Assembly (NCBI GenBank): GCA_030154045.1
Contig: JASKKU010000004.1
Location: 1 to 42,974 of the forward strand
From: Candidatus Woesearchaeota archaeon
GTDB taxonomy: Archaea; Nanobdellota; Nanobdellia; Woesearchaeales; JASKKU01
Direction: 5' to 3'
Length of the DNA: 42,974 nt
A program made the translations under genes and the position numbers. Of the stretch, positions 11,037-42,974 are shown piece after piece (position 1 is the stretch's first letter; every line of letters begins with the position of its first letter). Under the pieces are notes generated by a model. That model was not told the DNA's origin. It searched no databases and saw nothing but the letters and a program-made list of their open reading frames with translations.

Positions 11037-12392
11037 TTATCTTCTCTTTCTTTTTCTTCTATAACTCTTATTTTTAGTTGTTGTCAATAACTTTACTTCA
11101 GCATAGATTAATGCAAGAATTACAATAATAATTCCAAGAACGATAATGTGCTTTAATGAACTCTTTGATAATAAACTCTCTTTCTTATAAACTGGGATAC
11201 TGATATTGAGAGTTTTCTGTGTAGATATTAATGGTTTTATGTTTTCGGTTACAATTTTATTTGAGCCATTTAGTATAATATATTCAACAGTTGCATTGTC
11301 CTTATAGATTGCATTGCCTTTTAACAACTCTTTTTTGATAGACACATTAATTTTAGAATCCTCAATTAAACTTTTGCTTTTGTTAACTTCTTGAAAATCA
11401 GCAAAAACACTCCCGCTTGTTTGTATTAAAAACAAGTATTTTTTTATGTTCTCAATTGAACCAACCGTTATATTGATGTTGCTTGAATTCTTTATTAAGT
11501 AAGCAATATCTGAAGTGAATATTGAATTTTTATCAAAGAACAAATCTATTCCATTATTGCAAAATACACCAACTTGTGATTTATTTATTAAATTCTGATA
11601 AAATAAGCCTTTGTTTAATGAAGTTATAGATATGCCTTGGGTCGTATTTTCAAGGATGTTGTTTAAAAATTCAGCTTGATTATTTTTTAGAATCTCAATT
11701 CCTAAAAGTGAATTCTTAATTAAATTTTCTTTAATTGTAGGAACATAATTCTTTTCTAATCTAATGGCAGAACCACTACAATGCGCAAAAGTATTTCCCT
11801 CTATATTTAAGTAATAACCTATGTTTGAATCTATGCAATGACTAAAGTTTGTAGATATATAATTTTTTTCCAGTTTTAAACTAACAACATTCTCAGAAAT
11901 AACAGCTCTTTGTTGTGCTTCGATTTTGGATTTGATTATGTATATTCTTGAAGACGAGAGTACAGAAATGCCTTCAAGAACTCCTTTTATATAGCATGAA
12001 CTTATGCTTACATCTTGCGAGTTTTTTATTTTTATACCCATATAACCATCCTTTATAATTACATTTTTTATTGTGATGTTCCTCAGATTGTTGGTCGAAT
12101 TACCATTTACTAATATCGCTTTTTCACCTTTCTCAAAGAATCCATAGATTGTGTTCATTCTTCCATCTATAAGAACATTACTTGTATTGATTTCTAAACA
12201 TATTTTTTCCTTAGGGTCAACAGTCATGCTTTGGTTTAAGATATATATCCCTGGTTTTGTTATTTTTGTACATTCGCTTAGATACGTAACCTTACTAGGA
12301 GTTGCAATTACAAAGTCTATTGAGATTAAAGAGTTTAAAAGGAGAATCAAAAACCCAATAAAAATCCAAAAATTATTTTTAGTTCTTAGCAT
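11037..12392 (-). CDS. Secreted beta-helix (NosD-like) surface protein
   Basis: A 451-residue protein: a signal peptide or membrane anchor at about 8-30, then many short repeats of the right-handed parallel beta-helix type (runs such as NLRNITIKNVIIKDGYMGIKI and LEKNYI), then a C-terminal membrane segment near 415-437 ending in RRKRKRR. The layout suggests a surface protein whose helix faces outward. Several NxS/T sequons occur. Relatives are called NosD or PbH1-repeat proteins and often bind or modify polysaccharides, but no catalytic residues are identifiable. A TATA box (about 12414-12422, minus strand) lies 26 bases from the ATG. Confidence 0.85.
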   Translation of the reverse strand: MLRTKNNFWIFIGFLILLLNSLISIDFVIATPSKVTYLSECTKITKPGIYILNQSMTVDPKEKICLEINTSNVLIDGRMNTIYGFFEKGEKAILVNGNSTNNLRNITIKNVIIKDGYMGIKIKNSQDVSISSCYIKGVLEGISVLSSSRIYIIKSKIEAQQRAVISENVVSLKLEKNYISTNFSHCIDSNIGYYLNIEGNTFAHCSGSAIRLEKNYVPTIKENLIKNSLLGIEILKNNQAEFLNNILENTTQGISITSLNKGLFYQNLINKSQVGVFCNNGIDLFFDKNSIFTSDIAYLIKNSSNINITVGSIENIKKYLFLIQTSGSVFADFQEVNKSKSLIEDSKINVSIKKELLKGNAIYKDNATVEYIILNGSNKIVTENIKPLISTQKTLNISIPVYKKESLLSKSSLKHIIVLGIIIVILALIYAEVKLLTTTKNKSYRRKRKRR

Positions 12393-18469: not shown

Positions 18470-18756
18470 AAACCAGAATAAAAGAATACAGGGCGAAGTA
18501 TGATTTAACTCAGGAGGATTTGGCTAAAATCGTAGGGGTTAGAAGAGAAACTATTGTTTTTCTAGAGAAGGGCCGCTATAATCCATCTCTTATGTTAGCA
18601 TACAAAATTGCTAAGGCATTAAATGCAAGAATTGAGGATTTGTTCATGTTTGAAGATGAGTTACAAAATGCTGTCGGAGATAGTAAAAAATATAAACCTA
18701 CATACTCAGATAATAACAAAAAAAACGCTGGGCTAAATGAATTTTTCAAGTATTAA
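18466..18756 (+). CDS. HTH transcriptional regulator, XRE family
   Basis: A 96-residue DNA-binding protein. Residues 3-61 form a compact Cro/CI-type helix-turn-helix ([17 protein letters not shown], then [20 protein letters not shown] and IEDLF), very close to the short regulators usually paired with DUF2178. A polar tail of about 35 residues follows, longer than in the minimal family members; its last codons overlap the start of the giant surface gene by 20 bases. It probably binds as a dimer to an inverted repeat; the palindrome at 18071 is the nearest candidate. Confidence 0.92.
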
Positions 18757-21700
18757 AGAGAGGATAGAGTATCTCAATAGAAAGATTGAAGAGTGCGAAG
18801 AACAAAAATCTAAAATTGACGCCTTAGCAAACAAGTTCTTATCAGAGCAGATTAAGAAAAAAGATTTTTCTTATGAAACTTATGAAAAAGAGCTCAAAAA
18901 GTTGCTTAAGGGTAAAACAAGAGCCGAATGGTTTGCATATCTAAATTCTAAAATCAAAGCTTATAAATCAGAGCTCAATAAATTAAAACAGGAGCAAAGA
19001 AAACTCTTGAGAAAAAGAACTGTGCTTGTTGTTTCCGTAAATTTATTGGTTTTTGCCTTTGTCATTCCTTTTTTATTGACCAATTATTCAAACTTTAACT
19101 TAACAGGCTTCCTAGTAGCAGAGCCTGCTCTTGTTGGTCAAAATTCGAGTACTAATCTTACTAACATATCGCCCCAGATAGAGGCTACAATTAATCAAAC
19201 ACAGCCAGCAAATGAATCTTTAGCTGAGGAACCTCAAACCAAAACAAAGGAAAGTCCTAAACCTATAACAAGCTCTTCCACTAGCGGGAGTAAATCTTCC
19301 TCTAGCTCAGAAATAACATCTATCTTGCAAGAAAGCAATGAAACTCAGACGAACCAAACTCAGACTAATGAAACAATCGCTGAACCAGCAAACAAATCAA
19401 TCAATTTAGAGAACAATTCTGCTGTTAATAACGAAAGCTTTCTTAATCAAAGTAATCAAACTCAATCGGTTATAAACATCACTAATCAAAGTTATGAAAA
19501 TATTTCCGATTTAACAAACATAAGTTCAAACGAATCCTTTAATCAATCAGAAATTATAGAAAATCAATCCGTGCTTGAAAACTTGAGCGAAACCGCAAAT
19601 AAGACCGCAAACCAAACAATAAACCTCACAAATCAAACAAATTTAACAAACGAAAGTTTAGAGAATGCAACTATTGAAAACCTGACAAACGCAAGCCTAG
19701 AAAACATCTCTTTGATAAATATAACAAATGAAACCATAATCCAAAATCAAACCAATATGACGAATCTTTCTAATGTTTCATTAATCGAGAATATAACTAA
19801 TATAACAAAAGGATCTATTATAAATCAATCGGTATTAAATGAGACAAATGTAAGCAAGTTAATAAATGAAACCTTGGGAAACGAAACTCAAATAAATAAA
19901 ACTGAGGTTAATGAAAGCAATACAACTTCAACAATAATTAACCAGACCTTATCATTTTTCTTTGAGAATCTAACTGTTGCAGTAAACTCTACAAAGGCAA
20001 TAAACTTAGAAGAGTATTTTAATTCCTCCAACTTAACTTATATTTTAATTAATTTTGATTCTATGAATGCTCAAATAATAGACGATGTTTTAGTAATCTC
20101 TCCAAAAACCGTCGGTTCTTTCAGGTTAAAAATAATTGCAAGTGCTGAGAATTACACCTTAGAATCTAATGTGTTTTATGTTGAATCTTTATTACCTAAC
20201 GAAACCAATCAATCCACTTTAAAAAATATAACTAACGAAACTTCTCAAGAGATTGGCAATATTAAAAATTTAACTTTGATAAAACCTCTGCCAGAAATTA
20301 CTTTGGTGTATCCTCAAAACGTAATCTTAAATTTGAGTCAGTATTTTAAGTCCTCTTCTGACATAATTTTTACCTTCATTTATGATACTTCAAAACTTAA
20401 TGTCAAAGAAAAACTTGGTGTAATAAACATCTCTTCAAAACTTAATGACAATTTTAACCTAACAATAAAAATTTGGGCATCTGATAATAATAACACCTTA
20501 CAGAACAACCTTAGTATTACTGTATTACAGAACCTTTCTTTATTAAATCAAATAATGAACCTTACAAATCAAAGCACTAATTTAACGAACGCAAGTTTAG
20601 AAAACCTAAGTGAGATAAACCTTAGTAAAGTTAATGAACCACCAAGACTGCTTTATAATCTAACCAATCTAACAGTTTCAAACACAACCTTAAAGATTAA
20701 ACTATCTAATCTATTTTATGACCCAGACTCTGACGAACTTTCGTTCCTTGCTATCTCTGATTATCCTCTAGTTTCTTTTATTGATTCAGACTATCTTTAT
20801 CTTTATGCAGAGCATAGCTTTAATGGCAGCAGAGAATTAAAACTCTTGGCTTCTGACGGAATAAATGTAACTATTGTGAGCTTTTTTGTTAATTATTCAG
20901 AGACATTTAACGTTTCCTTACCGGAGAATCTAACTAATGATATAAACCATTCAATTAATGTTTCCAATCAGACTTTATTAAACCTAACTTCAAAAGAACA
21001 ACAAGAAAGCTTGAAGTATTTCATAAACATTAACGGCCCTACTCGTTGGGTTAAGAGAGTAAGAGTTCAAAACTCTGAAGATGCTTGGACTTATAAGGTT
21101 GTTTCAGTTTTGATTCCAAGCGATGCAAAGAACATAACTGTGCTCTTTAACTCTCAGTTGTTGAAGTTTATTGATGAATTAGAGATGCCGAAAGTAAAGG
21201 TCTTATCGAGTGCTAATGATTTAACTACCTATATGCAACAAACTAATAACACTCAAGAAGAAAACCTTTCAAATAATTCAATTAATGAATCTTTGATTAA
21301 CTCAAGCACTTTACAAAATTCGTCTTCAAATTTAACCATTATTAATGGAACTAATTCAAGCGAAACAAACTCTTTAGAGAATAATAGTAATAATACATTA
21401 AACAATACATTACAAGAATCTGAAGACAATCTCTTATCAAATGTTGTGCAAACAATAACAGGATTCTTTGGTTTTGGTATCAATGAACAAATAAATGCAA
21501 CGAATGAAACTAATCTTGCCTCTACAAACAATGAAAGTAATGCTGTTTTGGGTTCAACCAATAATTTAGTTAACACCACTTCATTAAATGATTCGCAGAC
21601 CCAAATAGATGAAACTTTTTCAAAAGAAGCAGTTTATTCTTTGAAGGATTCAGAATTGGGTAAAGCCGTCTTAATCAAAGATTATTTTGATCCTAATAGC

Positions 21701-23080
21701 ATTAAAGAATATGAGATTCAATACTTTACTTTAGGAGTTCATCTTGAAAAAGTATTAGATTATAGAACCAACCTTACGCATTACCAAAAGTTTAAGTTGA
21801 CAAATTTGGATAATGCAACTTACCAAAATATTAGATTAACCTTTATTGAACAGCCTCTGGATCAGCTTACGGTACTCTCCAATTCTGAAATAAATTATAG
21901 TTATGTTGAATTAAGCAATGAAACAAAGATACTTGTTTTAGTAAAAGAACTCAAACCCTACGAGACAATTGACTTATCAATCTATGCAATGTTTGATACC
22001 TTCTCATATAAACTGTATTCCATAATAAACAATACTTGGAGGTTTGACCTTTCTACAGAGTTCAACGACACTTTCGAGCTTAATTTGTTGAATGGCTCTT
22101 TAACTTTGGATGATATTGTTTGTTTAGATACAAATGAATCCGTATTAAATTCAGGCCTAACTCAGTCAGTCACTACAACAGAAACAGATAATAGCATTAT
22201 TTCAGAACAGAACTCTTTGACAAATTCAACAATTTTGCAACAAGAAAATCAAACCGAAAACATCACACTAAATACTGCTAGTGCCTTTAATAATTCTCTT
22301 GAAAACACTTCATTAAATCAAACAACAAATCAAACAACTGTAAATACCAGCTTAAATACCTTTGATAATGAAACTAACATAAACGAAACAATGCAAAACC
22401 AAGAGGTTAAATCTAATTTAGATTCCTCTGGGAATTATGTTAAGTTTGACACAACTGTCTGCAAGAACTTTGCAGTATATTTATCAGGAGATGATATTAA
22501 GAATGCAGAGGTACAAGTTAGTTTCTTAAATTCAACAAAAGAGATACATTCAGTTGAATCTAAGACATTGTTCCCACAGATTTCATCAATAACCGGATTC
22601 TGTAATAATTGTGGAGAAGACAAATTGTTTAATGTTTCAGTAGGCTGTGTCAAAACAAATACTGCTGAAGGTGGTTGGGATTTTGCTCTTCAAATGGACT
22701 TTAATTTCTCAAGTAACAGACTTTTAGCTTATGAAGCTACCCTCTGCGTTGACACGATTTACTCAACTGATGCGCAGGATGTTTATGCAGTTTTCCTACC
22801 AACAAACTCAACAAACCTTACTGAATATGAGATCTATGCCTTAAACAACATCAAGTCCTTAGACGTGTTTTTAATGAACAAGCCATACTTAACTTTACAT
22901 ATCAATTCTAGCATAAATGAGTTTAGTAATCAGACCGTTTTCTGCGGTACAGGTTATAATATCCCTCTATCTAAAAACTTCAGGATTTTACTTTTGGGTC
23001 AAGATATGCAATATTCTGCTAGGCCATTCGCTTGCTTTATGACTAATTCAAAGAATACTTATTTGAAAATCAAATACTAA
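18737..23080 (+). CDS. Giant sequon-saturated surface protein
   Basis: A 1447-residue protein. Residues 1-94 form a charged coiled coil, about 95-115 a single membrane helix, and the rest should be outside, because the helix is preceded by a basic cluster (RKLLRKR). By eye I count 54 NxS/T sequons in the roughly 300 residues after the helix. Three Ig/cadherin-like units appear near 404-485, 517-598 and 633-722; the last has DPDSDELSF and ASDG. More Asn/Ser/Thr-rich linkers and an ordered C-terminal domain with several cysteines follow. No catalytic site is seen. A heavily glycosylated cell-surface stalk or adhesin is the best reading. It overlaps the HTH gene by 20 bases. Confidence 0.85.
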
Positions 23081-40389: not shown

Positions 40390-41535
40390 TCAAATTTTAA
40401 GCAGGCCTATTTTCCACAATATAGTCTTAATAAATATTCCTAATAGTATAAAACCATCGCCTTTGCAGATTATTGCTATTACAAATCCTAAAACAATGTA
40501 TGGTGCAAAAGGCATAGTTTTAAATACTGGGACTTCGGTAGTTCCTTTTTCTTTAAATATCTTTTTTATAACTTCAATATTCTCGCTTTCTAAACCAATT
40601 GATTGGTCATAATTGCCGATGATTTCATACTCCTCAAATCCTAAAGCCGTGCTGAGATAATTAAACAAAGAAAAGAAATTTATTCTTTTGAGATTGATTT
40701 TACCGTTTTCTTTTACAGGAACCATCGCTAAGTAATCTCCAATCTTTAATTCGTCTACTTTTTTGTAAGCAATATTTTTATTAAATATTCCTTCTAGAAT
40801 GATCATTCTTAGAAGTATATAAACTACAAAAACTTTGAGCATCTTAAACATTTCTTGTAAGCTTAGGTAATTTGGGAAGTCTAAAAAAAGTCTTAAGAAA
40901 AAAAGTAGAAAAATTAAGACTTTAAACTTAAGTTTGAAAACAACCCTGAAAAAACCTATGATGAATGTTAATATTATTGCAGTTAAAATAATATTTCCGT
41001 TGATTCTAAGAAGACTCATAATCCATTGAAGTATCCAAAGCAATCCGAAAACTCCAATTAAAGAAAAGCTTATACTTTTGGGATTTAATATCTTTTTAAT
41101 TTGATTTAAGTCTTTTTTGTCTAATTTGGTTATGTTTGGAATTATAATTGCAATAGAAATCAAAACTAAAATGTTTGAAAGCAGGCTTAACATCTCAGAA
41201 TTATTTGTAACTACTAAGAATCTGCCTGGAATTACGAAAGATAAAACACCAAAAAGTTTTCCGTCAGCAGGCGCCCAAAGTCCCATTATCCAAAACAAGA
41301 AACCTATTGAAATCCCAAGTATTCCTCTTAGAACATGTTTTGGCAATAGAAAAATCTTTCCATAATTCATAAAAAAAATCACATCTTGGATACAAATGAT
41401 GATTAATGAAAAGATTAATAACAATAACAAGTCTTTATTATATATTTTATTTCTTTTAAAATCGGTGTATGAAATTCGAGCCCCAAAAATTAAAATGAGA
41501 ATTACAAGCATCCAATCAAGTAAAGTTATAATCAT
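40390..41535 (-). CDS. A24-family prepilin/preflagellin peptidase-like protein
   Basis: A 381-residue polytopic membrane protein. Asp25 in YTDFKRNKIYN matches the first catalytic Asp of type IV prepilin peptidases, and Asp92 in APADGKLFG the second (GxGD motif, here APAD). The C-terminal KTMPFAPYIVLGFVIAI is also family-like. It is longer than archaeal FlaK/PibD (about 230-250) because of a middle insertion with extra helices and a soluble segment (about 255-330). Catalysis is likely but unproven. It overlaps the preceding gene by 4 bases. Confidence 0.78.
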   Translation of the reverse strand: MIITLLDWMLVILILIFGARISYTDFKRNKIYNKDLLLLLIFSLIIICIQDVIFFMNYGKIFLLPKHVLRGILGISIGFLFWIMGLWAPADGKLFGVLSFVIPGRFLVVTNNSEMLSLLSNILVLISIAIIIPNITKLDKKDLNQIKKILNPKSISFSLIGVFGLLWILQWIMSLLRINGNIILTAIILTFIIGFFRVVFKLKFKVLIFLLFFLRLFLDFPNYLSLQEMFKMLKVFVVYILLRMIILEGIFNKNIAYKKVDELKIGDYLAMVPVKENGKINLKRINFFSLFNYLSTALGFEEYEIIGNYDQSIGLESENIEVIKKIFKEKGTTEVPVFKTMPFAPYIVLGFVIAIICKGDGFILLGIFIKTILWKIGLLKI

Positions 41536-42159: not shown

Positions 42160-42974
42160 ATGCTTATTAAGTCTTTTAAAGCATTGAGGAATTCGTATTT
42201 GTTAGTTCTGGCTTTAATTCTAATTGTTATTCCTTTCGTTTTCTCAGCTACTCTTTATGTTGAAATACACGAACCTGTTTTTGACGGTACTGTCGCATCA
42301 GCTTCCACAACAATTGTTAATGACCCTGAAGCTAATTGTCCTGGCACTCCTGGAACAACTGTTAGTACTAGTTGTACAGACTTTACATACGGTTCTTCAT
42401 GCTGCGTTAGTGAAGGCAATTATATTGCTTATGCATACTCTGATGAAGGAGAGAGTGCAGGCAATAGTGGGATTTTTGTAGAATACACTGTTAATTGGGA
42501 TAATAGTGAAACATATTGTACCTGTAAAGTAGGTTCAGGCCATTGGAATTTAGGTGGTGAAGTTGCTGCAAGTAGTTGTTGTGGCGATGACTCTGGAGAA
42601 TATGTTCGAAATTGTGTAGACAGTACTGATCAAGGCAGTTGTGGTGCTGATACTACAGCATGCTGTAATTCCAATACTGACTGCGTGGATAATTATGGCT
42701 TGTGCGAAAGTAGTGGTGCGTGTTATGGTACACCTATTATGGGAAATAGCTATTGTAATTCAGGTACTTGGGAAAACCCTGACGAAAGTTCAAGTTATTG
42801 CGTTTCTAGTTGTGATTTAACTAGCGGTGATCAGGGCATAGGTTGGAACTTAGGTGGTGAGATTGCAGCAACTAATTGTTGCGGCGATGATCCTAGCGAG
42901 TATTATCGAGTTTGTTCTGACAGTAGTGCTAACGGTGCTTGTGGTAGTGATACTACTGCTTGCTGTAATTCTAA
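42160..42974 (+). CDS. Secreted Cys-rich repeat protein, 3' end outside the window
   Basis: An open frame from ATG 42160 runs without a stop to the window edge, at least 271 residues. A signal peptide (about 1-30: LRNSYLLVLALILIVIPFVFSA) is followed by an Asn/Ser/Thr/Gly-rich, very Cys-rich chain with recurring CC pairs. Two copies of a 45-residue module (W-N-L-G-G-E, A-A, CCGDD, EY, R, CG, DTTACCNS) begin exactly 300 bases apart. Disulfide-stabilised extracellular repeats are the natural reading. TATA-like boxes lie near 42107-42113 and 42123-42131. Confidence 0.8.
   Translation, partial: MLIKSFKALRNSYLLVLALILIVIPFVFSATLYVEIHEPVFDGTVASASTTIVNDPEANCPGTPGTTVSTSCTDFTYGSSCCVSEGNYIAYAYSDEGESAGNSGIFVEYTVNWDNSETYCTCKVGSGHWNLGGEVAASSCCGDDSGEYVRNCVDSTDQGSCGADTTACCNSNTDCVDNYGLCESSGACYGTPIMGNSYCNSGTWENPDESSSYCVSSCDLTSGDQGIGWNLGGEIAATNCCGDDPSEYYRVCSDSSANGACGSDTTACCNS
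42541..42674 (+). repeat. Cys-rich module, copy 1
   Basis: A 134-base in-frame module encoding WNLGGEVAASSCCGDD and, after a variable part, CGADTTACCNS. It matches copy 2 at 42841 in length, with conservation of Trp, the Gly-Gly-Glu run and all CC pairs; third codon positions differ. Confidence 0.9.
42841..42974 (+). repeat. Cys-rich module, copy 2
   Basis: The second 134-base copy encodes WNLGGEIAATNCCGDD and CGSDTTACCNS. It begins 300 bases (100 codons) after copy 1 and reaches the window edge, so further copies may follow. Confidence 0.9.

Follow-up and report, generated by a model that had tools for sequence, protein, structure and literature searches.

What is encoded by a gene that begins with a signal sequence, passes through two copies of an unfamiliar cysteine-rich unit and is then cut by the end of its contig? 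The window analysed here, 42,974 nucleotides long, is the whole of contig C4 in an assembly of 805 kb, 29 contigs and an estimated 95% completeness (G000), so its right edge is a real assembly break. Our analysis suggests that the gene cut by this edge, of which the window holds the front part (Table 1), codes for a secreted or cell-surface protein, and that its modules most likely make up a stalk, rich in disulfides, of an adhesin that is either secreted or displayed on the surface. That it has a ligand and acts in adhesion is inferred, the latter from the LamG, FnIII-like and Ig-like domains that accompany the module in related proteins. More specifically, we put at about 0.6 the probability that this is a secreted or surface protein in which a signal peptide, an N-cap, at least three disulfide-rich modules and a C-terminal domain make up a stiff stalk presenting its terminal domain.

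Table 1. Features at the right end of the window (positions are those of the window; residues are those of the cysteine-rich protein).
Feature	Position	Strand	Basis or remark
5' part of the gene for a secreted, cysteine-rich modular protein	42160..42972	+	271 aa, ATG start, open at contig end
Sec-type signal peptide, residues 1-30, MLIKSFKALRNSYLLVLALILIVIPFVFSA	42160..42249	+	inspection of the sequence
N-cap domain, about residues 31-119 (C60, C72, C81, C82; ...EGNY...YTVNWD), preceding module 1	42250..42516	+	alignable in G001, G023 and G024
Module 1 and the following linker	42511..42837	+	repeat and profile comparison
Module 2, cut by the contig end	42841..42972	+	repeat comparison
Archaeal A24-type prepilin peptidase-like protein	40390..41535	-	matches to PF01478 and PF06819, each slightly under the cut-off
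165-aa protein with N-terminal hydrophobic segment	41532..42029	-	no Pfam match

The product carries 24 cysteines up to the point where the contig ends. Its signal peptide is clear by eye, and its N-terminus can be aligned with that of a protein in G001, which alone among the other genomes sampled belongs to the same family. The landmarks of module 1 are C120 and C122, W129-N-L-G-G-E, CCGDD at 140-144, the optional pair C152/C161 and CC at 168-169, followed by C175, C182, C188, C199 and W204, with C214 and C218 in the linker. The two modules (about residues 128-171 and 228-271) lie exactly 300 bases, or 100 codons, apart. When the protein is compared with itself at a shift of 100, 29 of 45 residues are identical; the best 45-residue stretch at the next-best shifts has 9-11 identities, and 200 shuffles of the window protein gave at most 15. 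The sequence-only reading had described two modules at this spacing and recurring CC pairs, and it was right on both counts, the pairs numbering five (81-82, 140-141, 168-169, 240-241 and 268-269). It had also held that the modules differ mostly at synonymous or conservative sites, which stands in part: among 44 codon positions compared, 20 are identical and 10 synonymous, but at the other 14 the residue differs, in several cases radically (N/V, V/S, D/A). These codon differences indicate that the duplication is not recent. The weight that had been laid on a regular 100-codon spacing is misplaced, since 25 tandem units from the window gene and its relatives are spaced 86-117 residues apart; the exactness is therefore local to the window gene, and we rejected it as a signature of the family.

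As far as sequence comparison goes, the module is a domain that recurs and has no name in the databases searched, and the earlier remark that the family could not be named agrees with our searches, in which no well-described family was matched. There was no match to the window protein in Pfam or NCBIfam, to the module profile in the PDB, or to the probable continuation of the gene (see below) in Pfam; the window protein drew antibody and ribosome-associated chains from the PDB at E 0.02 or worse, none of them convincing, and 50 module sequences searched against Pfam and NCBIfam gave scattered weak rows only. A literature search on CCGDD or a cysteine-rich DPANN repeat returned nothing relevant. 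We built module profiles from 23, 40 and then 50 modules. The core consensus consists of an aromatic residue, x-[IL]-G-G, CCGDDxxE, ACC, DC, C, C, W and a linker cysteine; the patterns used to sample the modules already included CCxD, E and the Cys that comes next, and full invariance at these positions is partly by construction.

The number of cysteines is more telling: tandem units entered the parity count solely on the strength of CC[GEQ]D[DE]..E at their ends, a choice that does not build parity in. All 25 units have an even count (12 cysteines in ten, 10 in seven and 8 in eight), for which the naive binomial probability, uncorrected for the shared ancestry of the units, is 3e-8. Loop 1 holds either zero or two cysteines in 57 of 58 modules; the remaining one has an extra cysteine in loop 4. 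That extra loop 4 position (C188 in the window) goes together with the second linker cysteine (C218) in 11 of 12 tandem cases, the twelfth being the compensated module. Even counts and co-varying optional pairs support disulfides, and we propose C152-C161 and C188-C218 as two of them. Counted from CCGDD to CCGDD, a unit would then comprise eight core cysteines and up to two optional pairs, and we expect every one of these cysteines to become oxidised outside the cell. The suggestion of a secreted, modular, disulfide-bonded protein is supported by these patterns, along with the signal peptide seen by inspection and the recurrence of the module.

Where is the rest of the gene? Very probably on contig C28, to judge from a comparison of frames and gene order. 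The first frame of this contig (2-790, 262 aa), already open at the contig start, belongs to the same family; it contains one further module and then a C-terminal domain (L003 374-787) ending in CDASTMKCT. In G001 a single 372-aa ORF spans the N-cap, one module and the C-terminal domain; its front is 38% identical to the window protein over 249 columns and its back 47% identical to the C28 frame over 238 columns. The genes downstream follow the same order in G001 and on C28: a DNA ligase (54% identity), an Ig-domain surface protein (41%), a diphthine-synthase-type methylase and an M29-type peptidase, the last two matched by eye, with an additional HAD-like gene in between on C28. The surface protein (L003 4152-5711, + strand), which is Ig/cadherin-like and has a transmembrane segment at its C-terminus, keeps its place in G001, after the cysteine-rich gene and the DNA ligase. 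The start of C28 is a cysteine-rich stretch similar to what precedes a module in G023; the window has no counterpart of it, so some sequence is missing between the two contigs. One might take this missing stretch to mean that we are looking at two paralogues, both truncated where their contigs stop. We regard that as very improbable, since G000 has one copy of the C-terminal domain (as does G001) and one N-cap match, the open ends of the two gene parts are correctly oriented towards one another, and the single-ORF version in G001 sits in the same gene neighbourhood. Contig C12 was considered as the continuation and rejected, as its frame ends in a different C-terminus without the domain found on C28. 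With the gene probably continuing on C28, the outcome that the sequence-only reading had named as refuting it, an early stop past the edge and no more repeats, does not arise: a third module and a C-terminal domain come ahead of the stop. Other cysteine-rich surface proteins of G000 are also cut by contig ends (L007 3-1895, - strand; L007 5249-8059, + strand; L078 2-2551, + strand), which suggests that such genes systematically break this assembly.

The module is not confined to this locus but recurs widely in DPANN-type archaea, on proteins of the cell surface. At a profile E-value below 1e-6 it occurs in 64 of the 353 genomes of the order and 45 of its 220 genera. An even sample of the phylum gave 36 of 279 genomes, where every match falls in the same class. 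For the order of the window, its number of families and its small genomes point to a DPANN group such as Woesearchaeales. A named record with the module is a Candidatus Aenigmatarchaeota MAG, from what we infer by group size to be a phylum other than that of the window, and 21 of 156 genomes of that phylum are positive. Within G000 further module proteins lie on C15 and C12; the one on C15 also carries LamG, as does a protein of G023. Other large module-bearing relatives carry LamG, FnIII-like or Ig-like domains, some of these matches being below curated cut-offs, and the module is often found in large proteins, with some frames exceeding 4000 residues. This domain company makes the fibre or adhesin proposed by the sequence-only reading plausible, but unproven. 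By eye, the Aenigmatarchaeota protein has a C-terminal transmembrane segment; the three short orthologues have no C-terminal membrane anchor, which leaves cell attachment unproven. A viral or phage origin was rejected: none of 48 pattern matches in IMG/VR was confirmed by tblastn, and there was no PHROG match.

How would so many cysteines become oxidised? What speaks most strongly against a plain disulfide account is that VKOR and DsbA were not found. VKOR was detected in 160 of the 353 genomes of the order and a DsbA-like Thioredoxin_4 protein in 212 of 338, but neither was found in G000, G001, G023 or G024, all of them module-bearing. VKOR is in fact rarer in genomes with the module (14 of 64) than in those without it (146 of 289; Fisher 2.6e-5, a comparison confounded by phylogeny), and with no positive link to the modules in the order we rejected it as their general partner oxidase. 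The sole PF00085 thioredoxin-family match in G000 (C1:15110-15526, equivalent to L062 1315-1734, + strand) is a membrane-anchored protein of 139 aa that carries a DsbA-type CPHC motif and is similar to the thioredoxin half of VKOR fusions. Relatives of it occur in 113 of 193 genomes and were not found in G001 or G023. The search for secreted thiol oxidoreductases that had been recommended therefore turned up this one membrane-anchored candidate, but neither VKOR nor a DsbA-like protein. In its broadest form our proposal is that stalks for cell contact are formed by an undescribed disulfide-rich domain family that extends over two or more phyla of archaea with tiny genomes, and that some of its users without VKOR and DsbA oxidise it by another route, for instance through a CPHC thioredoxin anchored in the membrane, through the host or through the environment. 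This proposal is tentative, and we would place the odds somewhat against it.

The same absence of VKOR and DsbA-like proteins from the four genomes could be read differently, namely that the CC pairs and acidic residues are not built around structural disulfides but serve a secreted protein that binds metal (Zn, Cu, Fe) or stores electrons; the pairing of the cysteines and the conserved D143, D144 and E147 would suit such a function. However, a fixed metal site needs no optional cysteines, the module consensus has no conserved histidine, and even counts in every tandem unit, with optional cysteines gained and lost pairwise, are what one expects of disulfides. We consider this reading improbable. 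Somewhat less so, though still unlikely, is a structural role in which the modules pack laterally into a coat, as an envelope or S-layer-like component or a secreted matrix protein. The repeated occurrence of the module in large surface proteins and the several paralogues in so small a genome as G000 are in its favour. Against it, occurrence in fewer than one in five genomes of the order is too patchy for a universal coat, and the number of modules varies from one in G001 to at least three in the window gene.

What might a stalk of this kind do? On the reading that we prefer, a disulfide-rich stalk of an adhesin, the protein would be exported by Sec, as its N-terminus indicates, and would fold oxidatively outside the cell. 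The architecture would run from the signal peptide through an N-cap beta domain and at least three disulfide-rich modules (of roughly 85-117 residues) to a C-terminal beta-rich domain. The tandem modules would form a short, stiff, protease-resistant stalk or spacer, the acidic patch CCGDDxxE may bind Ca2+, and the terminal beta-rich domain would make the contact, be it to other cells, to polymers or to the envelope. Structure models are of moderate or poor confidence (AF2 mean pLDDT of 70 for module plus linker, a large part of the core lying at 70-90, and short strands only; 54.5 for the whole window part, a model that we set aside), so they show neither a fold nor a rod geometry.

The A24 peptidase-like gene lies upstream of the cysteine-rich gene and divergent from it, with no demonstrated link. 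With this neighbour in mind we considered whether the window protein is an archaeal type IV pilin, and rejected the idea because its N-terminus is Sec-like and has no pilin cleavage motif before the hydrophobic stretch. Elsewhere in the window, a right-handed beta-helix or NosD-like protein (11037-12392, - strand; PF13229 and PF05048) is possibly another surface protein, and a 1447-aa ORF with no Pfam match at E 0.001 (18737-23080, + strand) lies directly upstream of a ThiI gene.

Few of the proteins with which DPANN archaea contact their hosts have been identified, and the module profile offers a handle for listing candidates across genomes. Moreover, the absence of VKOR and DsbA from some module genomes turns the oxidation of exported proteins into a testable question.

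Several known systems invite comparison. Von Willebrand factor C and fibronectin type I domains are, like the module, extracellular, cysteine-rich and built of short strands. However, Foldseek gave nothing significant against the PDB or viral models, its weak rows including a collagen 2A vWC domain (E 4.1, probability 0.16, 34 aligned columns) and a fibronectin FnI fragment (E 7.9); there was no sequence match, and neither domain appeared in the Pfam search of 50 modules. The myxococcal repeat TIGR04201 (Myxo_Cys_RPT) is a bacterial cysteine-rich repeat that 2 of the 50 modules match weakly (best E 0.011), but these matches are isolated and the window module has none. LDL-receptor class A modules are small and disulfide-bonded, with an acidic cluster beside the cysteines; they serve as a lead for Ca2+ binding only, since the cysteine pattern of our module differs and no sequence or structural match was found. 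The LamG/ConA-like lectin (PF13385), Ig and FnIII surface proteins of DPANN archaea also bear comparison. The window part matches none of LamG, Ig or FnIII (neither it nor the C28 part exceeds the PF13385 cut-off), and the cysteine-rich module is a separate domain; yet some module proteins carry these very domains and look exported, and an adhesin role has been proposed for the LamG proteins of Undinarchaeota (PMC7414124).
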